From Curtobacterium sp. SGAir0471 (GTDB lineage Bacteria > Actinomycetota > Actinomycetes > Actinomycetales > Microbacteriaceae): a stretch of DNA of 64,000 bases. A model generated the notes under the pieces. The model saw nothing but the letters and a program-made list of their open reading frames with translations. It searched no databases and had not been told where the DNA came from. Made by a program: the position numbers and the translations under genes. The stretch covers positions 806,001-870,000 of the forward strand of contig NZ_CP027869.1 in assembly GCF_005490985.1 (NCBI RefSeq), given 5' to 3'. This document shows positions 2,770 to 33,564 of the stretch, one piece after another; the first letter of the stretch is position 1; each line of letters begins with the position of its first letter.

Positions 2770-3834
2770 GTGACGATCACCAACGGCCGCACGGTCCCGC
2801 TCGCCCCGCCCCGGGTGCACGCAGCGCGCGGTCGCCTGCGGGACGAGCCGGTCGCCGGCACCAAGAAGGTCCTGCTCGCCGCCCCCCGCGGCTACTGCGC
2901 GGGCGTCGACCGCGCCGTGGTCGCGGTCGAGAAGGCGCTCGAGCAGTACGGCGAACCCGTCTACGTGCGGAAGCAGATCGTCCACAACGTCCACGTCGTC
3001 TCCACGCTCGAGCAGCGCGGTGCGGTGTTCGTCGACGACGTCGCCGAGGTCCCGCGCGGCGCCCACGTCGTCTTCAGCGCCCACGGCGTCTCGCCCGCCG
3101 TCGTGGCCGGTGCCGCCGAGCGCGACCTGCACGCCATCGACGCGACCTGTCCCCTCGTCACCAAGGTCCACCGCGAGGCCACCCGCTTCGCGAAGGCGGA
3201 CCGCACGATCATCCTCATCGGTCATGCCGGCCACGAGGAGGTCGAGGGCACCATGGGCCACGCCCCCGAGCGCACGATCCTGGTCAACGGCCCCGAGGAG
3301 GTCGCGGCGCTCGAGGTCCCCGACCCCGACAACCTCGTCTGGCTCTCGCAGACCACGCTGAGCGTCGACGAGACGATGGAGACCGTCCGGCTGCTCCGCG
3401 AGCGGTTCCCGTCGATCGAGAACCCGCCGTCGGACGACATCTGCTACGCCACGCAGAACCGCCAGGTCGCGGTGAAGAAGGTCGCACCGGACGCCGACCT
3501 CGTCATCGTCGTCGGCTCGGCGAACTCGTCGAACAGCGTGCGACTCGTCGACGTCGCCCTCGAGTACGGTGCAGCCGCCGCCCACCGCGTCGACTACGCC
3601 GAGGAGATCCGCCAGGACTGGCTCGACGGCGTCCGCACGGTGGGCGTGACCAGTGGCGCCTCGGTGCCCGAGGAACTCGTCACCGAGGTGCTCGAGCAGC
3701 TCGCGGACGCCGGGTACGGCACCGTGGAAGAGGTCGTGACGGCGCACGAGGACCTCATGTTCTCACTCCCCAAGGAGCTCCGCACCGACGCCTCGGGCAA
3801 GCCCACCCGCGCGCTCGGCGGGCGGCGCTCGTGA
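2770..3834 (+). CDS. ispH: 4-hydroxy-3-methylbut-2-enyl diphosphate reductase
   Basis: The last step of the MEP isoprenoid pathway: an iron-sulfur enzyme reducing HMBPP to IPP and DMAPP. The 354-residue protein shows the three cluster cysteines in their motifs: [12 protein letters not shown] near residue 40, [11 protein letters not shown] near 125, and [11 protein letters not shown] near 225, plus the substrate motifs SAHGVSP and [14 protein letters not shown]. Start GTG 2770 lies 7 bases after TATCAT. The downstream membrane-protein gene overlaps by 4 bases, forming a two-gene unit. Confidence 0.97.
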
Positions 3835-4574
3835 GCGGCGACTGGTCGTCGGCACCGGCCCGCGAGCCGGGTCACGTGGACGATACCGCGCTCGGCCGGG
3901 AGGCCCGCCCCGCGTCCGCCGCGCCGGCCACCGGTCGACGGGACGGCCGGGTCCACGGCACGCCGGCACCCGAGTACGGCGAGTACGCGCCCGCGGGGTG
4001 GGTGAACCCGGTGCTGGTCGAGCAGGAGCGGCAGGCGGCCCAGGACCGAGGTCGGGACGAAGCGCAGCGGCAGGACGCCGCCACGCGTCGCGCACCCGAT
4101 CCGACCGGGTCGGGTCCCGACGGGCGTGACGCCCGACGGACGCACGGACCCGGGTCCCCTCGTGGTTCGAGTGCCGCTCCCACCTCCGCGACGACGAGCC
4201 CCTACGGCGCCTCGCGGCTCGACTTCGTGCTCACCGTCGGGCTGCTGTTCGTCGGCCTCTGGTCCGTCTTCGGCGCGCTGTCCACCGGCACGGTCGCGAG
4301 CGTCACCCGTGAGTACGTGGCGGGGCAGTTCGGCGAGATGTCCTCGCCCGCTGCCCTGTCCTCCGCCGCGGTCGTCCGCGTGGTGATCCTCGCAGTGGTC
4401 TTCGCCCTGGTCGCCTGGTGGTCGGTCCGACGCCTGCGTGCCCGCCGCTGGACGTTCTGGGTGCCGTTGGTCGGCGGGGTCGTCGCGAGCGCGCTCGGCG
4501 CCGTGCCGATGCTCGTCGTGGTGTTCCAGGACCCCGCCGTGCAGGAGGCGATCCGTCGGGCGTCCGGCGGGTAG
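3831..4574 (+). CDS. Uncharacterised membrane protein (DUF6264-like) coupled to ispH
   Basis: A 247-residue protein starting at a GTG that overlaps the ispH stop (GTGA). The first 125 residues are hydrophilic, charged and probably disordered, with [14 protein letters not shown] and [18 protein letters not shown]. The C-terminal half has three hydrophobic segments (about 130-155, 180-200, 208-232) and ends in a short polar tail. It resembles the DUF6264 membrane proteins found beside ispH in Microbacteriaceae; I assign this from memory of the family layout. Function unknown. Confidence 0.75.
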
Positions 4575-4583
4575 GCGCCGGAG

Positions 4584-4623
4584 CGCGCCGTCGCCTACTC
4601 TGCGAGACCGCGCCGTCGCCTAC
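4584..4623. repeat. 15-bp direct repeat, 25-bp spacing
   Basis: CGCGCCGTCGCCTAC occurs at 4584-4598 and 4609-4623. The second copy contains the stop codon of the M18 aminopeptidase gene, so the repeat looks like a local duplication across the convergent gene ends. Confidence 0.6.
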
Positions 4624-5879
4624 CCGGCGAGGAAGGCCGCGACGGCGCCGTGCAGCGCGGCGAGGTCGTCCACGTGCACGAGCTCACGGACCGAGTGCAT
4701 GGACAGCAGGCCGACGCCGATGTCGATCGTCGGGATGCCGAGTCGCGTCGCCGCGATCGGACCGATGGTCGAGCCGCCGGGGATCGTGTTCACGTTGACG
4801 AACGGCTGCCAGGAGACCCCGGCGGCGTCGCACGCGGCGGACCAGACGGCCTCGCCCTTCGCCTCGGTCATGTAGCGCTGGTTCGCGCTGATCTTCAGGA
4901 GCGGGCCGCCGCCCGGACGCGGGCGGTTCGTGGGGTCGTGCTTCTCGGGCTGGTTCGGGTGCACGAGGTGCCCGGCGTCGCTGGAGAGCAGCCACGAGGC
5001 GCGGAAGGCACGAGCGGCCTCGGACCGCGTCGCACCGAGCCCCTCCTGCACGCGGCCGAGGACGTCCTCGAGGAACGGCCCGCCGGCGCCGGACGGGGTC
5101 GACGAGCCGATCTCCTCGTGGTCGAACGCCGCGAACAGCGGCACGTGGTCACCGTCGGCCGGTGCGTCGATGATGCCGCGGAGCCCGGCGTGCACGCTCG
5201 TCAGGTTGTCCATCCGGCCGGAGGCGAGGAACTCCCGGTCGATGCCGATCCGAGCCGGCGCCTGGGTGTCCGCGAGGAAGAGGTCCCACGAGACCGCGTC
5301 GTCGCCGAGCCGGCCGCGGAGCCAGGCGAGCACGTCGGTGCCGCCGGCGGTGCCGTCCGTGCCGACGACCGGCAGCGTGTGGCGCTGGCGGTCGATCTCC
5401 TTGCCGTCGTTCACGCCGCGGTCGAGGTGGATCGCGAGGTTCGGGATCCGGGCGACGGCGTCGGTCGACACCAGGCGCACCGAGCCGTCGGCGTCGACCA
5501 CGCGCCCGGCGATGCGGAGGTCGCGGTCGAACCACGTCGAGAGGAGCGCCCCGCCGTAGACCTCGACGTTGAGCTGCTCCCACCCGCCGACGCGCACGGC
5601 CGGGTTCGGCTTGATGCGGAAGCCGGGGGAGTCGGTGTGGGCACCGAGGATGCGGAACGGGGTGGTCGGGGTGGCACCCGAGGGCAGACGCCACGCGATG
5701 ACGGCGCCGTCGCGGACGACCACGTACGCTCCCGCCTCGGTCGGCCAGGCGTCGAGCTCCGACAGCTCCGTGAACCCTGCCGCGACGAGCTGGTCACGCG
5801 CGACCGCGGCCGCATGGAACGCGGTGGGGGACTCGGTGACGTACTGGGCGAACGAGGAGGCGATGGCGTCGGTGGTCAC
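4620..5879 (-). CDS. apeB: M18 family aminopeptidase
   Basis: A 419-residue aspartyl-aminopeptidase-type metalloenzyme that removes N-terminal residues from peptides in the cytoplasm. Motifs include the zinc-binding GAHTDSPGF near residue 95, HLDRGVN near 155, FAAFDHEEIGS near 250 and the C-terminal GVGLLSMHSVRE, in the order expected for M18. It starts with GTG at 5879; CACGAT lies 6 bases upstream, a weak leaderless-type element. It is convergent with the ispH unit. Confidence 0.95.
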   Translation of the reverse strand: MTTDAIASSFAQYVTESPTAFHAAAVARDQLVAAGFTELSELDAWPTEAGAYVVVRDGAVIAWRLPSGATPTTPFRILGAHTDSPGFRIKPNPAVRVGGWEQLNVEVYGGALLSTWFDRDLRIAGRVVDADGSVRLVSTDAVARIPNLAIHLDRGVNDGKEIDRQRHTLPVVGTDGTAGGTDVLAWLRGRLGDDAVSWDLFLADTQAPARIGIDREFLASGRMDNLTSVHAGLRGIIDAPADGDHVPLFAAFDHEEIGSSTPSGAGGPFLEDVLGRVQEGLGATRSEAARAFRASWLLSSDAGHLVHPNQPEKHDPTNRPRPGGGPLLKISANQRYMTEAKGEAVWSAACDAAGVSWQPFVNVNTIPGGSTIGPIAATRLGIPTIDIGVGLLSMHSVRELVHVDDLAALHGAVAAFLAG

Positions 5880-26074: not shown

Positions 26075-26233
26075 GGATCCAGTCCAGTGCGTTGCCACTG
26101 CCCTGACCAGTCCCCAGAACTGGGAAGAGCCGATCCGCGCAGCCGTGCCGTCCCGGCGTGGCGGACGAGCAGCGCGTCCCCCGGCGGCAGGCCAACCTGA
26201 GTGCCCGGCTCAGGCGGGGCGTTGAATGCACTG

Positions 26234-26587
26234 GTGAAGTACGTGGTCTACGGAGAGAACCGAGTGATGACCGGCGATGCGATCGCCGAGGCGGTGCTCG
26301 CCTACGCCGCTGCGCTCGGCGAGAACGGGACGACGGACATCGTCGAGATCCCGACCGCTGACGCCGAGGGCTACGGCACGACGGCGGAGGTGCTGCTCGG
26401 CCCGGCTTCGCAGATCATGGTCGAAGTGGCTCCGGACGACGAACTGGAGCCGGAGGACGAGGACCTCGTCAACGAGCTCGCGCGTCGTACGAAGGCCGTC
26501 GGTGGCGGCCGGTTCGAAGATGCGGCGTCGTCGCACTCCGACGAGCCCGAGGCGCGCCGACTGCGGACGGACCCGCCCCAGGTCTGA
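26234..26587 (+). CDS. Uncharacterised small acidic protein, paralog of the one at 27591
   Basis: A 117-residue protein of unknown family. Residues 1-90 align without large gaps to the protein at 27591-27938: VKYVVYGE against VKYIHYDA, MTGDAIAEAVLAYAAALG against LTGDLIADAVADYAAVLG, LLGPASQIMVEVAPDDELEP against LVGPASELCVTVAPDDELEP. The C-termini differ. Start GTG 26234 is chosen by that alignment; TTGAAT lies 6 bases before it. The two copies flank the HEPN/MNT pair. Confidence 0.75.
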   Translation: MKYVVYGENRVMTGDAIAEAVLAYAAALGENGTTDIVEIPTADAEGYGTTAEVLLGPASQIMVEVAPDDELEPEDEDLVNELARRTKAVGGGRFEDAASSHSDEPEARRLRTDPPQV

Positions 26588-26644: not shown

Positions 26645-27016
26645 TCACTCGACGATCGCGAGGATCACGCCCGGAATGTGCTGTTCGATGACGTCCCATA
26701 CGATGTCCTTCCGGGCTTTCCGGTAGTCGTGGGACAGGATGTTCCGTGTCCGTCGAACTGCTGCCAAGGACAAGTGGACCGGCAGTCGAGCGCGCCGGTC
26801 CTCGGGCAGGCGACCCAAGAGGTCGTCGAAGTGGATGACGACCGCTTCGGCGGCACGGTAGGTCAGACTCCGTGGAGCTTCGAACGTGTCCCTCCCGTGC
26901 TCGACGATCGACGAGCACTCGGCGAGCAGGTCGATCAGGCCGTCCCGGATCGCCGGCCAGCGATCGCGGTCGTCGTGACGATCGGAGCGCGCCTTCGGGG
27001 TGAACCGGTCGGTCAC
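26645..27016 (-). CDS. HepT-like HEPN ribonuclease toxin
   Basis: A 123-residue HEPN-domain protein of the HepT (DUF86) type, predicted to be the RNase toxin of a HEPN/MNT toxin-antitoxin system. The helix pair carries RNILSHDY: Arg91, His96 and Tyr98 form the RX4HXY active-site motif, in which the tyrosine is the residue modified by the partner in characterised MntA/HepT pairs. Its GTG start overlaps the antitoxin gene stop as GTGA, with the antitoxin upstream. The 25-residue N-terminus is unusually charged. Confidence 0.82.
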   Translation of the reverse strand: MTDRFTPKARSDRHDDRDRWPAIRDGLIDLLAECSSIVEHGRDTFEAPRSLTYRAAEAVVIHFDDLLGRLPEDRRARLPVHLSLAAVRRTRNILSHDYRKARKDIVWDVIEQHIPGVILAIVE

Positions 27017-27477
27017 AAGGGAACCGCTTCGTCGAGGACGTGACGGAAGTGCTCGTCGCCGACGAGATCGTCGGTGAGCACATCGGCCGCGAACCCGAGG
27101 AGGTCCTCGACCGCAGCGGCGAAGCCACCGAGGTCGAACAACGATGCGCCGGGTGCGAGGCCGACCAGCAGGTCGACGTCACTCTGCTCGGTGTCCTCAC
27201 CGCGGACGGCGGAGCCGAACACCCGCACATCGCGGAGGTGGAAGCGTTCCGCTGCCCGCAGGACATCGTCCGCGTAGAGAGCGAGCGGGATGCTGGGACG
27301 GGCCCGCGCCGCGCGCAGAATGCGCTGGAGCGTCTCAGGGCGTGGCTGCTTGCGACCGCTCTCGTAGGCGGAGATGCTCGGCTGCTGCATGCCCGCTGCC
27401 GTTGCCAGCGCGCTCTGGGACAGGCCGACGTCCTCACGCGCAGCGCGGATCAGTTCGGCCGCTCGTTCGACGCGCAT
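27013..27477 (-). CDS. MntA-like nucleotidyltransferase antitoxin fused to an XRE helix-turn-helix
   Basis: A 154-residue two-domain protein. Residues 1-60 are an XRE/Cro helix-turn-helix (REDVGLSQSALATAAGMQQP, then ISAYESGRKQPRPETL). Residues 80-154 are a minimal nucleotidyltransferase with the exact GSX10DXD motif: Gly88-Ser89, ten residues, Asp100-Val-Asp102. MntA enzymes of this kind AMPylate HepT. The fused HTH suggests that the antitoxin also represses the operon. ATG 27477 is chosen because it has GGAGG at 6 bases and because the residues before it lie over the promoter region. Confidence 0.85.
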   Translation of the reverse strand: MRVERAAELIRAAREDVGLSQSALATAAGMQQPSISAYESGRKQPRPETLQRILRAARARPSIPLALYADDVLRAAERFHLRDVRVFGSAVRGEDTEQSDVDLLVGLAPGASLFDLGGFAAAVEDLLGFAADVLTDDLVGDEHFRHVLDEAVPL

Positions 27478-27499
27478 CGCAGACCTCCCATACCCCAGG

Positions 27500-27505
27500 A
27501 CTATA
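27500..27505 (-). promoter_or_regulatory. Candidate -10 of the HEPN/MNT operon
   Basis: TATAGT on the minus strand, 22 bases before the antitoxin ATG, with a GGGAGG ribosome-binding site between (27483-27488). The region lies back to back with the promoter of the 27591 gene. Confidence 0.45.
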
Positions 27506-27561
27506 ACCTCCGGGGCTGGCCGCGCAACGCACACTCCGAACCTCCTCGCACAGGCGGAACC

Positions 27562-27567
27562 TACCGT
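27562..27567 (+). promoter_or_regulatory. Candidate -10 for the small acidic protein gene
   Basis: TACCGT, 23 bases before GTG 27591, followed by a GAGGAGG ribosome-binding site at 27580-27586. Expression logic therefore differs from that of its paralog. Confidence 0.35.
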
Positions 27568-27590
27568 CGATGACAAGACGAGGAGGACAC

Positions 27591-27938
27591 GTGAAGTACA
27601 TCCACTACGACGCGAGCCTGATCCTCACGGGGGACCTGATCGCGGACGCGGTCGCCGACTACGCGGCCGTCCTCGGAGCGAACTCCCGCACCGACACGAT
27701 CACGGTGCCCAGCGTGGGTGACGACGGCTCGGTGTCGACATCGATCCTGCTGGTGGGCCCGGCGAGCGAGCTCTGCGTGACCGTCGCTCCGGACGACGAG
27801 CTCGAGCCCGAGGACCCGGCGTTCATCCGTCGGCTTCGTGACGCGGCACGACGGGCGGGTCCGGCGCTCCCGGTGAACGCCGACGGCGGGATGCGCTTCC
27901 GCGGGGCGGAGGAGCCGTCCTCGTACGACCGGGCCTGA
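27591..27938 (+). CDS. Uncharacterised small acidic protein, paralog of the one at 26234
   Basis: A 115-residue protein of unknown function, homologous over about 90 residues to the product of 26234-26587 (shared core GPAS...V-APDDELEPED). The C-terminal 25 residues are different and end in a charged tail. GTG 27591 has a good GAGGAGG site. It is divergent from the antitoxin gene, so the toxin-antitoxin pair sits exactly between the two paralogs. Confidence 0.75.
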   Translation: MKYIHYDASLILTGDLIADAVADYAAVLGANSRTDTITVPSVGDDGSVSTSILLVGPASELCVTVAPDDELEPEDPAFIRRLRDAARRAGPALPVNADGGMRFRGAEEPSSYDRA

Positions 27939-28739: not shown

Positions 28740-29522
28740 ATGCAGCACCGAACCCTGCGGTGCCCTCGAGCCGCGATCGTCCCTGCGACGATCGCGGCCG
28801 GGGCCATCGGCCTCACCGTCCTCGCCGCGACGCCCGCGGCCGCGGCGCCCACCGCCACCACCGTCCGCATCGCGGCGCCGTCGAGCGCGACGGTCGGCGA
28901 ACCGATCGACCTCGACGTCACGATCCCGGCGACGACCGACGTCTACGCCTACGAGATCACGATCGACACCGACGAGGACGCCCTCGCGGTCGTCGACGGC
29001 AGCGTCACCGGCCCCGACGGCGGCTTCGACCGCGTCGAACAGGACGCCGACACCATCACGATCGTGCACTCCCGGCTCGGCACCTCGCCGGCGTTGAGCG
29101 GCGACCTGGCCGCCTCGGTGGCGCTGACGCCGACGGCTGCCGGTGACACCGACCTGGCGGTGTCGAGCGTCGTGCTCGTCGGCTCCGACGGCAGCTCGAC
29201 GACACTGACCGACCCGGTGTCGACGACCGTCAGCATCGCTGCCGTCCCGACCCCGACGCCGACCGCGACGCCAGACCCGACCGACGCACCCGACCCGGCA
29301 CCGAGCACGTCCACCACCCCGACCCCCGGCAGCACCGCGACGGCGGTCCCGGCCGGTGCCGCGGGAGCACCCGGTCGTCCCGCCGGCGGAGCGCTCGCCT
29401 GGACCGGTGCGGACGTCGCTCCCTGGGCTGCCGCGTCCCTGGCGCTGCTCGCACTCGGGACCACCCTCGTCACCCTGCGCGCCCGACGTGCGCGCCGCGA
29501 GCGCAACGGAGACGCCGCATGA
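28740..29522 (+). CDS. Secreted cohesin-like protein with LAWTG sorting signal
   Basis: A 260-residue exported protein. Residues 1-37 form a signal peptide ending near TPAAAAP. Residues 39-165 read as a cohesin-type beta sandwich: TVRIAAPSSATVGEPIDLDV, then DVYAYEITIDTDEDALAVVD, and the late GDTDLAVSSVVLVGSDGS strand. Residues 169-215 are a Pro/Thr linker. The end is a sorting signal: LAWTG (219-223), hydrophobic stretch (226-246) and basic tail. LAXTG is the site preferred by class E sortases. The start has a GAAGGA site. The next gene, overlapping by ATGA, encodes a dockerin-bearing amidase. Confidence 0.82.
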   Translation: MQHRTLRCPRAAIVPATIAAGAIGLTVLAATPAAAAPTATTVRIAAPSSATVGEPIDLDVTIPATTDVYAYEITIDTDEDALAVVDGSVTGPDGGFDRVEQDADTITIVHSRLGTSPALSGDLAASVALTPTAAGDTDLAVSSVVLVGSDGSSTTLTDPVSTTVSIAAVPTPTPTATPDPTDAPDPAPSTSTTPTPGSTATAVPAGAAGAPGRPAGGALAWTGADVAPWAAASLALLALGTTLVTLRARRARRERNGDAA

Positions 29523-31408
29523 CCGCCCGGAACCAGAGTGAAGGCCGCAGCGCTGCCCGGACCGGAGCGCGTCGACGCACCGCTGTCACCGGTGCCTCGT
29601 TGGTCGCCCTCGTCGGCGCGGGCATCGTCGCCGTCCCGAGCCTGACCGCTGCCGCCGCCCCGTCCGTGGACGCCCGCCCCGCCGCCATGCTCGCGCCGTA
29701 CTACACGGAACTCGACCTCAACGGTGACGAGCAGGTGACCGAGGACGACCTCGCCGAGCTCGGTGACCACCTCGGCGTCTCGCGACCGGCCACGGGCACC
29801 GACCCGGAGTGGGACGCGGTCGCCGTCGCCGACACGGACGGCGACGGCACCATCACCGTCGCCGACCTCGCGGCGCTGTCCCAGCGGATCATCTACGACG
29901 ACGGGCCGTTCGAGCTCGTCGAGGCCTCCACGATCGACATGCAGGCGGCGATGAACGCGGGGGTGACGACCTCCGTCGCCATCACGCAGGAGTACCTCGA
30001 CCGGATCGCCGCCTACGACCGGACGAAGGTCGACGGAGCCACGAACGGCCGACCGCTCAACTCGATCATCACCACGAACGCCGCCGCACTGACCGCAGCG
30101 AAGGCCGCCGACACCGAGCGGGCGGAACACGGCATGACGAGCATGCTACTCGGCGTGCCGATCGCGGTGAAGGACAACTACGACACGAAGGACATGCCGA
30201 CCACGGGCGGCTGCTCGTGCTGGAGCGCGAACCAGACCGACACCGACGCGACGATGGTCGCCGGCCTCCGCGACGCCGGTGCGGTCATCCTCGCCAAGGC
30301 GAGCCTCGACGAGTTCGCCTACGGCTTCGTCTCCGAGTTCTCGACCGGACAGCCGGCCGGTTCCTCGCTCCTCGTCGCGAGCCCGTACGTGACGTCGCAG
30401 AGCGCCGGTGGCTCCAGCGGCGGCACCGGTGCGGCGATCGCGGCGAACCTGGCCGGGATCGGGTTCGGTACGGACACGGGCGGTTCGATCCGCATCCCGT
30501 CGACCTACAACCAGCTCGTCGGCATCCGTCCGACGGTCGGGCTGGCCAGCCGTGACGGCATCATCCCGCTCGCCCTCTCGCAGGACACCGGCGGCCCGAT
30601 CGCCCGGTCGGTGACCGACGCCGCGGTCGCACTCGACGCCGTCACCGGTGTCGACGCTGCGGACCCCGTCACGAACACCCAGTCCGGCAAGGTCCCGACG
30701 TCGTACACCTCGTCGCTCGACGCGACGTCGCTGCAGGGCGCACGGATCGGGTACGTCACGAGCATGGTCGGCACGAACGCCACGACGAAGCGCCTGTTCG
30801 ACGAGTCCATGGCGAAGCTCACCGCGGCCGGTGCCACGGTCGTCCCGATCGCCCCGACGACGGCGTTCAACCGGGTGCTCTCCGAGGGCAGCGGCAGCAC
30901 GAACGAGTTCGGGCACGACCTCGACGAGTACGTCGCGGAGCACCTCGACCCGGACGTCACCGCGCGGTCGCTGCAGGGGATCCTCGACTCCGGGCAGTAC
31001 GTGCCGAGCCGGAAGTCCACCTACGAGTCGCGGAACACGATCACCGACGCGCAGTACCAGGCGTGGGCCGGCCCGACCGGATCGCACACGACGCAGCTCG
31101 CGGCCGGCAAGGCGCTCGTGACGCAGATGCTCGACGACCAGGACCTCGATGCCCTGGTCTACCCGTCGGGCACGCCGTACGGCACCCAGTCGACGAACAT
31201 GCGGCTCAGCCCGAACACGGGCATGCCGGCGCTGACGGTCCCGATGGGCCAGGCGACCGCTGCCGACGGCACGGTCACCGGCGGTGGCGTCAACCTCGAG
31301 TTCCTCGGCCGGTCCTTCGACGAGGGCACGCTGATCGGGCTCGGGTACTCGTTCGAGCAGGCCACGAAGGCGCGCACCGCGCCGGCGCTGTACGGCCCGC
31401 TCGGCTGA
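29519..31408 (+). CDS. Secreted amidase with N-terminal dockerin domain
   Basis: A 629-residue exported enzyme. A basic, hydrophobic signal region spans 1-47. Residues 60-125 carry two calcium-loop repeats of a type I dockerin: DLNGDEQVTEDD (66-77) and DTDGDGTITVAD (105-116). The rest is an amidase-signature hydrolase: Lys218 in PIAVKDNYD, the GGSSGG cis-serine loop (297-302), and the nucleophile Ser323 in GTDTGGSIRIPS, a complete Ser-Ser-Lys triad. Amidases of this family cleave C-N amide bonds; the substrate is unknown. Coupling to the cohesin gene suggests wall display through cohesin-dockerin binding. Confidence 0.88.
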   Translation: MTARNQSEGRSAARTGARRRTAVTGASLVALVGAGIVAVPSLTAAAAPSVDARPAAMLAPYYTELDLNGDEQVTEDDLAELGDHLGVSRPATGTDPEWDAVAVADTDGDGTITVADLAALSQRIIYDDGPFELVEASTIDMQAAMNAGVTTSVAITQEYLDRIAAYDRTKVDGATNGRPLNSIITTNAAALTAAKAADTERAEHGMTSMLLGVPIAVKDNYDTKDMPTTGGCSCWSANQTDTDATMVAGLRDAGAVILAKASLDEFAYGFVSEFSTGQPAGSSLLVASPYVTSQSAGGSSGGTGAAIAANLAGIGFGTDTGGSIRIPSTYNQLVGIRPTVGLASRDGIIPLALSQDTGGPIARSVTDAAVALDAVTGVDAADPVTNTQSGKVPTSYTSSLDATSLQGARIGYVTSMVGTNATTKRLFDESMAKLTAAGATVVPIAPTTAFNRVLSEGSGSTNEFGHDLDEYVAEHLDPDVTARSLQGILDSGQYVPSRKSTYESRNTITDAQYQAWAGPTGSHTTQLAAGKALVTQMLDDQDLDALVYPSGTPYGTQSTNMRLSPNTGMPALTVPMGQATAADGTVTGGGVNLEFLGRSFDEGTLIGLGYSFEQATKARTAPALYGPLG

Positions 31409-31437
31409 GCCGGACGGTCCTGACGGACCACGAGACG

Positions 31438-31477
31438 GACGGGAGGCCCGTGGCGACACCGCCACGGGCCTCCCGTC
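31438..31477. terminator. Hairpin after the amidase gene
   Basis: Perfect 18-bp arms (31438-31455, 31460-31477) with a 4-base loop. It contains GGAGGC/GCCTCC, the dispersed hairpin family. It lies between convergent genes. Confidence 0.8.
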
Positions 31478-31487
31478 TCCACGCGGT

Positions 31488-32264
31488 TCAGTTGAGGGCG
31501 GGGGTGTCCTCCGGCACGACGCCGTCGCCGTACAGGTCGGTCGCCAGGTCGCGCAGCGCCCGCAGCGCCACGCGCTGCGTCAGCGGGCCGTAGGAGATGC
31601 GCGCGACGCCGAGCTCCTGGTACTCGGCGGCGGTCAGTGCGCCGGGCAGGCCGATCACCGAGAGCCTGCCGCGGCCGAGCCCGTCGACGAGTCGCTCGAC
31701 CACGTCGCGCTGGATCGCGCCCGGCACGAAGACGAGCGGCGCTCCGACGTCGAGGAACGCCTTCCCGCGGGCGATGGCGTCCTCGATGCTCTCGTCGATC
31801 GGGCGGTCCCCGCCACGGGCGATCGCGTCCGTGCGGGCGTTGAGCTGGAAGTCGACGCCCTCGGCCTCGACGGCGGCGGTGATCGCGGCGACGCGGGCCA
31901 CGGCCTCGTCGAACGGCCGGAGCCGGTCCTCGACGTTGGCGCCGACGATCCCGGCGGCGATCGCGCGGCGGATCGTCTCAGCCGGGTCCTCGTACCCGTC
32001 GTCCAGGTCTGCCGTGACGGGCAGGTCCGTGGCGGCGGCGACGGTCGCGGCGCCCGCGAGGGCGACGTCGAGCGGCATCCCGCCGTCGTCGTAGCCGTGG
32101 CTCGCGGCGATGGAGTGCCCGGCCGTCGCGATGGCCTTCGTCTCCGGCAGGTCGCTGACGACCTTCGCGCTGATCGCGTCCCAGACGTTCACGACGCGCA
32201 GGATCTCGGGGGCTTCGTGCAGCTGCTTGAGGGTGGTCGCCTTGTCGGCGGTGCTCGTGCTCAT
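31488..32264 (-). CDS. Isocitrate lyase/PEP-mutase family protein
   Basis: A 258-residue TIM-barrel protein of the ICL/PEPM superfamily. It has VVNVWDAISAKVV near residue 25, TAGHSIAASHGYDDGG near 45, PVTADLDDGYEDP near 80 (metal-binding Asp pair), GANVEDRL near 107, and NARTDAIARG near 142. It lacks the KKCGH motif of true isocitrate lyases and fits the small oxaloacetase/phosphonopyruvate-type group; the substrate is unknown. The ATG at 32264 follows TAGGTT by 7 bases, a leaderless arrangement. Confidence 0.88.
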   Translation of the reverse strand: MSTSTADKATTLKQLHEAPEILRVVNVWDAISAKVVSDLPETKAIATAGHSIAASHGYDDGGMPLDVALAGAATVAAATDLPVTADLDDGYEDPAETIRRAIAAGIVGANVEDRLRPFDEAVARVAAITAAVEAEGVDFQLNARTDAIARGGDRPIDESIEDAIARGKAFLDVGAPLVFVPGAIQRDVVERLVDGLGRGRLSVIGLPGALTAAEYQELGVARISYGPLTQRVALRALRDLATDLYGDGVVPEDTPALN

Positions 32265-32271
32265 GGTGCCG

Positions 32272-32277
32272 AACCTA
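32272..32277 (-). promoter_or_regulatory. Leaderless -10 element of the PEP-mutase family gene
   Basis: TAGGTT on the minus strand, 7 bases before the ATG at 32264. Confidence 0.5.
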
Positions 32278-32376
32278 TGCGGCGGACGTGTGGCGCGACC
32301 GGGACCGGACCGGCAGACGACGTGGGATGACGTCTGGACTCGCCCCGCGCCTCCCGGTCGATGCATGCTGGGACGC

Positions 32377-33564
32377 ATGGCTGACGACGAACAGGACCCG
32401 GTCGGCACGCTCCGCGGGGTCCGCACGAGCATCAAGTGGACGCGCTACGCGCCCGACGTGCTGCCCCTGTTCGTCGCCGAGATGGACCACGACGTCGCTC
32501 CGGCGATCCGGCAGGCGCTGGTCGAGCGGGTGCAGCAGTCCGACCTCGGGTACCTCGACGGCCCCGGGCCGCTCGCACCGGCGTTCGCGCAGTTCGCGCG
32601 CGACCGGTGGGGCTGGGCCGTCGACCCGGCGCGGGTGCACCTCGCGACCGACGTCAGCGTGGGGATCGTCGAGTCGCTGCGGCTCGCGCTGCCGGACGGC
32701 GGACGCGTCGCGATCACCCCGCCGGTGTACCCGCCGTTCTTCGAGCTCGTGGAGGAGGCGCGATGTCAGGTAGAGGAGGTCCCGCTCGCCGAGCAGTGGG
32801 GCGTCTACCGGCTCGACCTCGACGGGCTCGAGCGCGCCTTCGCCGGCGGCGTGCGCGTCTTCCTGCTCTGCAACCCGCACAACCCGATGGGGCTCGTGCA
32901 CGACCGGGCCGACCTGCTCGCGCTCGCCGGACTCGCCGCCCGGTACGACGTGCTCGTCATCAGCGACGAGATCCACGCGCCGCTCACGCACCCCGGCGTC
33001 CGCTTCACCCCGTTCGCGATGGTCGCCGAGGCCGCCGGTGCCCGCAGCGTCTGCGTGACGAGTGCGAGCAAGGGGTGGAACCTCGCGGGGGTGAAGTGCT
33101 CGGTGATCGTGGCGGGGGACGACCGGACCGAGGCGCTCCTCGACACCCTGTGGGAGGAAGTGGCCTGCCGGACGAGCATCCTCGGGCTGCACGCGAACCT
33201 CGCGGCGTTCACGCTCGCCACGGACTGGCTCGACGACGTCGTCGCCCGGATCGTCGCGAACGAGCGGTTGCTCGGCTCGTTGCTCGCCGAGCACCTGCCG
33301 GGTGTCGTCTACACGCGGCCGCGAGCCGGCTACCTGGCGTGGCTCGACTTCCGGGGGATCGGCCTGGGGGACGACCCGGCGGTGCCGCTGCGCGAGCACG
33401 CCTACGTCGCGCTCAACTCCGGGCTGGGGTTCGGCGCGCAGGGCCGTGGCTTCGCGCGGCTCAACCTGGCGTGCTCGCCGGAGACCCTGCGCGAGGCGGT
33501 GCACCGCATCGCGGCGGCCTACCCGTCGAGTGCGCAGGAGGGGTTGGTCTGGCACGTCGCGTGA
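32377..33564 (+). CDS. MalY/PatB-type PLP-dependent C-S lyase or aminotransferase
   Basis: A 395-residue fold-type I PLP enzyme of the MalY/PatB subgroup, often cystathionine beta-lyases. N-terminal KWTRYAPDVLPLFVAEMD is the subgroup hallmark; then DVSVGIVESLRL, ITPPVYPPFFELV, LLCNPHNPMG, ISDEIHAPL (Asp near residue 203 contacts the PLP nitrogen) and TSASKGWNLAG with the Schiff-base Lys near 234; RLNLACS holds the carboxylate Arg. ATG 32377 lies 7 bases after CATGCT. It is divergent from the PEP-mutase gene. Confidence 0.9.
   Translation: MADDEQDPVGTLRGVRTSIKWTRYAPDVLPLFVAEMDHDVAPAIRQALVERVQQSDLGYLDGPGPLAPAFAQFARDRWGWAVDPARVHLATDVSVGIVESLRLALPDGGRVAITPPVYPPFFELVEEARCQVEEVPLAEQWGVYRLDLDGLERAFAGGVRVFLLCNPHNPMGLVHDRADLLALAGLAARYDVLVISDEIHAPLTHPGVRFTPFAMVAEAAGARSVCVTSASKGWNLAGVKCSVIVAGDDRTEALLDTLWEEVACRTSILGLHANLAAFTLATDWLDDVVARIVANERLLGSLLAEHLPGVVYTRPRAGYLAWLDFRGIGLGDDPAVPLREHAYVALNSGLGFGAQGRGFARLNLACSPETLREAVHRIAAAYPSSAQEGLVWHVA

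Follow-up and report, generated by a model that had tools for sequence, protein, structure and literature searches.

Cohesin and dockerin are component domains of cellulosomes. What, then, do one cohesin and one dockerin do when they are encoded by two overlapping genes of an actinomycete, the first on a protein with no enzyme domain and the second on an amidase? This question is raised by a locus of Curtobacterium sp. SGAir0471 (Microbacteriaceae), which we analyzed within a window comprising 64,000 nucleotides of contig NZ_CP027869.1 (positions 806,001 to 870,000). An initial annotation had proposed that the two proteins form a surface complex that holds the amidase. That reading is supported by the predicted fold of the cohesin, the near-exclusive pairing of the two proteins, the existence of natural fusions and the presence of a class E sortase. 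We consider it quite likely that the two genes form a self-contained unit, whose cohesin would capture the dockerin of one amidase-family enzyme and whose LAWTG tail would display that enzyme on the cell surface.

Two overlapping genes encode a cohesin protein and a dockerin-amidase

The first gene (28740..29522; this and all other features of the pair lie on the forward strand) encodes a protein of 260 amino acids and the second (29519..31408) a protein of 629 amino acids. As the initial annotation had described, the genes are adjacent and overlap, sharing a 4-nucleotide ATGA stop/start sequence (29519..29522). The overlap is conserved: taking the start codon nearest to the cohesin stop, we found ATGA in 38 of the 40 related loci from named genomes that have an upstream cohesin gene with an unbroken frame, and TGATG in the other two. 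Such an overlap would favor roughly equal synthesis of both proteins.

Directly 3′ of the second gene is a 19-bp hairpin (31437..31478, forward strand; fold of −54.6 kcal/mol for 31425-31490, z −9.3). This hairpin is unusually strong and sits between the second gene and a convergent PEP-mutase-like gene (31488-32435). We did not call it a terminator because it lacks a T run; it is nevertheless the likely transcript end for both convergent genes.

Elsewhere in the window, the reverse strand (26645-27576) encodes an HTH-nucleotidyltransferase protein (27013-27576) and then, overlapping it at the end, a HepT-like protein (26645-27016); together they look like an MNT/HEPN toxin-antitoxin pair. Flanking them on the forward strand are genes for two short acidic proteins (26201-26587 and 27570-27938) that are alike by eye and share the sequence VAPDDELEPED. 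Neither protein matches a Pfam family at E ≤ 0.001.

The first protein begins with a hydrophobic segment ending in AAAAP that reads as a signal peptide, through which the protein would be exported. Its cohesin domain spans residues 41-165 (28860..29234), followed by a Pro/Thr-rich stalk (29247..29393). Against the Pfam cohesin model (PF00963) the whole protein scores 21.8 bits (E 2.3e-4), under the curated cut-off of 24.1, and the domain alone scores 24.2 bits. Pfam profiles had been put forward beforehand as a check on both domains; the dockerin exceeds its curated cut-off (28.1 bits against 22.9), and the cohesin scores, for whole protein and domain, fall on either side of theirs. We accept the sub-threshold cohesin assignment on the strength of the predicted fold and of the homologs: at E ≤ 0.01, Cohesin matches 22 of the 25 relatives. 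An AlphaFold2 model of the segment encoded at 28836-29264 (pLDDT 93.6, pTM 0.86) shows a nine-stranded cohesin beta sandwich whose best fold matches are solved cohesins. The cohesin-like sandwich claimed in the initial annotation, which had named the fold as one of three points on which its reading could fail, is thus confidently predicted.

The second protein has a signal-like start, which in our reading of the sequence would direct its export, followed by a type I dockerin (PF00404) at residues 66-124 (29714..29890) and then the amidase domain. The dockerin has the characteristic duplicated calcium loop-helix at a curated score. Both calcium loops noticed at the outset are present: DLNGDEQVTEDD at residues 66-77 (29714..29749) and DTDGDGTITVAD at residues 105-116 (29831..29866). 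Conservation was assessed in 68 distinct pairs, out of 75, that have all three domains well covered. The acidic positions are kept in 66-68 of the 68 pairs for the first loop and in 65-68 for the second.

A pair of EF-hand-type loops could also mean something other than docking. The two proteins might share a process without binding each other, the loops serving as a calcium-dependent folding or stability module and the cohesin-like sandwich belonging to an independent wall protein. A conserved YDDGxF segment joins the dockerin directly to the catalytic domain, so the dockerin could be structural. Moreover, a profile of the pair's dockerins matched 238 PDB sequences, and the 60 matches listed are calmodulins and calmodulin-based sensors rather than dockerins, a resemblance to generic EF-hands. 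Against this stands the comparison of models: in the window protein Dockerin_1 outscores the Pfam EF-hand models, and at E ≤ 0.01 it matches all 25 relatives, compared with 11 for the best of the EF-hand models. Further evidence on both sides comes from the distribution of the pair and from its predicted contact site (below), and on balance we regard this alternative as unlikely.

The catalytic domain (residues 156-549; 29984..31165) scores 252.7 bits against PF01425, in agreement with the earlier designation of the enzyme as an amidase rather than a glycosidase. Its closest relative is PAM, the peptide amidase of Stenotrophomonas maltophilia (1m21/1m22), at about one-third identity; the match starts at query residue 130, past the dockerin. 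Lys218, Ser299/300 and Ser323 fall at conserved positions of the PAM alignment, and we take them to fill the roles of the Ser-Ser(cis)-Lys triad. The sequence match and these residues place the enzyme in the amidase signature family. PAM hydrolyzes the C-terminal amides of peptides. Transfer of this substrate is uncertain at about one-third identity, and we propose only tentatively that the Curtobacterium enzyme acts extracellularly and cleaves the amides of small peptides or of similar compounds. Action on the cell's own wall is possible.

The cohesin and the dockerin-amidase occur together

In its own genome (3.53 Mb, one contig), the pair accounts for the only cohesin-model match and the only dockerin-model match at E ≤ 0.001. 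Together with the retention of the pair in relatives, this argues that the association is not due to chance.

A family survey using Pfam models alone identified a cohesin in 15 and a dockerin in 21 of 299 genomes, and missed the cohesin of the Curtobacterium genome itself along with partners later found by custom profile. Because the Pfam models were too insensitive, we built custom profiles for the dockerin (A1) and the cohesin (A2) and repeated the scan. These scans score the 20 or 13 top candidates of each genome and, going by matching handles, are taken to cover the same 298 Microbacteriaceae genomes. A1 matched 22 genomes and A2 matched 21. Both parts occur in 21 genomes, the cohesin alone in none and the dockerin alone in one (G056), where the match lies at the first bases of a contig. 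Frequent independent occurrence of the two genes, which the initial annotation had named as evidence against its reading, is therefore not what these genomes contain. In 20 of these 21 genomes the cohesin and dockerin matches share a strand, and the gap between them is below about 1.7 kb; in G155 they are on two contigs, each close to a contig end. Six other genomes of the same genus as the window were included in the 298 and have neither part, so the unit is patchy and dispensable.

Across 384 genomes sampled at the class level, each profile matched 10 genomes, and nine contain both parts adjacent to each other, with the cohesin downstream in the five genomes of one family (f34). One match outside these pairs is a weak A1 hit in an unrelated 99-amino acid EF-hand frame (G602). 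The sole real exception found is G598, which encodes a cohesin (Pfam, 35.4 bits) that lacks the conserved motif described below and is unaccompanied by a dockerin-profile match. This cohesin protein has an Ig-like end and adjoins an M28 peptidase with a PA domain (L114:1874-3025 and 3029-4798, reverse strand). The peptidase is possibly another kind of partner for such cohesins.

We also searched named genomes for the amidase and identified 54 loci; in 46 of these (L038-L083) the best segment of the enzyme shows an identity of 57% or more. All 46 have one match to the dockerin profile, and 43 have one match to the cohesin profile. In the other three (L054, L061 and L076) a contig end truncates the locus; the stalk and the LALTG tail of the cohesin gene are still present in L076. 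The remaining eight loci (L084-L091), whose amidases are distant (32-38% identical), give no match to either profile. The cohesin and the dockerin-amidase thus occur together in nearly every related genome that has either. A Pfam dockerin match in G264 (L021) was left out of the family: it falls in an 86-amino acid frame near a contig end, is not accompanied by an amidase and adjoins an unrelated-looking 482-amino acid frame.

Comparison of neighboring genes, using mechanical gene calls and flanks of at most 6 kb, identified no conserved neighbors that hint at a substrate: the pair's own cluster spans 46 loci and the next clusters span nine and eight. As the flanks are not widely conserved, the unit looks self-contained, in varying surroundings.

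Pairing of this kind bears on the alternative without docking in two ways. Co-occurrence is expected of any operon, and because genes passed on as one block would remain neighbors even without contact, we infer rather than observe that the cohesin and dockerin bind. In every pair examined, however, the partner of the dockerin is a cohesin, a known dockerin-binding fold, and each is present once per genome.

Gene order varies and some lineages encode a single chain

Among the 43 loci with a cohesin match, the cohesin gene is upstream of the amidase gene in 40 (including L071, which has a broken frame), downstream in two (L072, Nocardioides; L079, Aeromicrobium) and part of the same chain in one (L078, Nocardioides). 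The cohesin gene is also downstream in G149, with an LSGTG tail at its end. Downstream cohesins with an Ig-like tail and no LAxTG also occur.

L078 is a single open frame encoding dockerin, amidase, cohesin and an Ig-like end, the last of these judged from sequence. Using the C-terminal part of this protein as a database query, we identified 12 single-chain proteins, including that of L078 itself and several named Nocardioides. These natural fusions are the basis of our alignment A5. When ten fusions were scanned with Pfam at E ≤ 0.05, Amidase matched 10, Dockerin_1 matched eight and Cohesin matched six; with the custom profiles, all three domains were found in 10 of the 11 fusions other than that of L078. 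No LAxTG occurs in the last 80 residues of any of the 12 proteins, two of which (P0194 and P0198) are incomplete. A model of the L078 protein minus its Ig-like end (pLDDT 85.8, pTM 0.80) is compatible with docking or with none, and its fold matches all fall to the amidase part. That single chains join exactly these domains is a further point against two proteins that merely share a process.

One upstream-type locus has lost features on both sides. In Microbacterium sp. Marseille-Q6648 (L071:4780-7641, forward strand), the cohesin frame is shifted ahead of the sorting signal and the dockerin lacks its second calcium loop. This double loss is what one would expect if the cohesin and the dockerin decay together; it is a single case, and the shift could be a sequencing error.

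A conserved cohesin motif falls at the predicted contact site

The cohesin contains the sequence RLGTSP at residues 112-117 (29073..29090), an instance of a family motif, [RK]LGxSP, that is present in 67 of the 68 distinct pairs. Within it L113, G114 and S116 are invariant in all 68. In the structural model, the motif lies in the loop between the strands at 73-80 and 87-99, which we count as strands 6 and 7. Passages on solved Ruminococcus complexes describe the 8-3-6-5 sheet as the dockerin platform and place the 6-7 loop nearer to dockerin helix 1 (PMC5429695). By analogy, the conserved [RK]LGxSP patch would fall where the dockerin would sit. Docking would depend on calcium, and the surfaces probably involved are helix 1 of the dockerin and the cohesin loop that carries [RK]LGxSP. 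A conserved motif at the expected contact loop is not what independent functions for the two proteins would lead one to expect.

Co-variation of the two domains fits less neatly with docking. Cohesin and dockerin distances are correlated (Spearman 0.63, or 0.27 as a partial correlation that takes the catalytic domain into account), and a mirror-tree test with plain permutation gave p 0.0005. A fairer control, based on windows of the catalytic domain, places the dockerin near the top of the range and not outside it: the partial value of 0.27 is reached by 2 of 44 windows, or by 4 of 44 when the 54 two-gene pairs are used, and the raw correlation by 12 of 44. Because catalytic-domain windows reach the same correlations, we treat the co-variation as suggestive only, and this weak signal of co-evolution counts in favor of the alternative without docking.

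The cohesin protein has a class E sortase signal

The cohesin protein ends in a LAWTG sorting signal (residues 219-223), a hydrophobic stretch and an Arg-rich tail (29394..29519). LAXTG has been described as the signal of class E sortases (PMC5148588). The genome encodes a class E sortase (NF033747, 226.9 bits; cut-off 160), as well as a class F sortase (174.7 bits; cut-off 166). With the motif, the hydrophobic stretch, the positive tail and the enzyme all present, the class E type of anchor proposed in the initial annotation stands, and sortase E may be expected to anchor the cohesin protein covalently to the wall.

All 40 named upstream loci whose frame is unbroken, comprising 39 whole genes and the tail in L076, have an LAxTG end. 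Other relatives have variant anchors, including LPxTG (L023, L026 and L033), LSGTG (L003) and a membrane tail only (L017). No sorting signal was recognized in L072, L078 or L079. The anchor thus varies and the cohesin-dockerin pair is constant, which makes docking, not wall display, the shared feature.

This constancy opens a second alternative, in which docking is real and display secondary: the cohesin would clamp onto its own enzyme, or link enzymes head to tail, and in this way stabilize the amidase or gate it; the sorting signal would be a lineage-specific addition. Fused versions without LAxTG, downstream cohesins with an Ig-like tail and the variety of anchors are all consistent with such a role. 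The uniform presence of LAxTG at the upstream loci, in turn, indicates that display is the norm for this lineage, and we consider a clamp or gate even less likely than the absence of docking.

A proposed one-enzyme display unit

Capture of the enzyme by the cohesin and its display through the LAWTG tail remain our preferred reading. It builds on features observed directly, namely the gene layout, the domain identities, the near-exclusive pairing, the conserved start/stop overlap, the single-chain versions and the class E sortase. In the proposed mechanism, both proteins would be made together and then exported. Outside the cell, the cohesin and the dockerin would dock one to one with calcium, and sortase E would attach the cohesin protein to the wall via its LAWTG tail. 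The result would be a single amidase held at the cell surface on a flexible stalk, comparable to a cellulosome with just one enzyme. Nocardioides and its relatives have the pair in reversed or fused form and with no recognizable sorting signal; docking there would therefore be intramolecular or head-to-tail, and the complex may be released or held by other means.

A broader hypothesis, which we think less likely than not, is that the unit is a portable one-enzyme display cassette unrelated to polysaccharides, occurring in two-gene form in Microbacteriaceae and relatives and in single-chain form in Nocardioides. Calcium-gated docking would be needed for the work of the amidase or for its retention at the wall, where it would edit peptide or own-wall amides. 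The remaining alternative, a remnant of a cellulosome-like scaffold that recruited several enzymes, as the cellulosomal nature of both domains might suggest, is highly improbable: a cellulosome has several dockerin enzymes on a multi-cohesin scaffoldin, whereas this genome, and likewise each genome with the pair, has one cohesin match and one dockerin match, and the enzyme is not a glycosidase.

If the preferred reading is correct, the unit is about the simplest natural cohesin-dockerin system, with one anchor, one enzyme, one operon and no other partner detected. Two small proteins would suffice to test specificity, calcium dependence and sortase E display, and the single-chain relatives offer a ready-made natural means of asking whether the enzyme benefits from docking as such. 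A surface-display module for Actinobacteria might also be derived from the pair.

Comparison with known cohesin-dockerin systems

The closest solved relatives of the cohesin, in both sequence and fold, are those of Clostridium perfringens (NagJ/GH84, NanJ/GH33 and GH20). These cohesins and the dockerins of C. perfringens NagH and other proteins are described as non-cellulosomal and as forming pairwise rather than scaffold-based interactions (PMC12997984). In that species both domains are found on glycosidases and several partners cross-bind; the unit described here has one pair per genome, an enzyme-free cohesin protein and an amidase.

Anchoring by sortase also has precedents, among them the Ruminococcus scaffoldin named ScaE. 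Cohesins tied to the wall by sortase and holding dockerin proteins are described for Ruminococcus scaffoldins and for Limousia cSca5, which has an LPxTG signal (PMC11557425, PMC12997984). Those scaffoldins serve multi-enzyme complexes, in contrast to the single enzyme, LAxTG/class E signal and two-gene organization found here in Actinomycetes.

A GH31 protein of Akkermansia muciniphila combines one dockerin and one cohesin in one chain (PMC12997984). It resembles the actinomycete fusions in having both domains and differs in being a glycosidase; no two-gene version is mentioned in the passages that describe it. Within the actinomycetes, the relevant passages of a study of three Cellulomonas genomes report no cohesin or dockerin (PMC3544764), while proteins named from other Cellulomonas (P0049 and P0175) do carry cohesin/dockerin domains. 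In the open-licence PMC literature we recognized no description of such a pair in Microbacteriaceae, an absence that is not proof of novelty. The unit differs from the known systems in its near-exclusive one-to-one pairing, its amidase, its class E signal, its phylum and its existence in both two-gene and one-chain forms.
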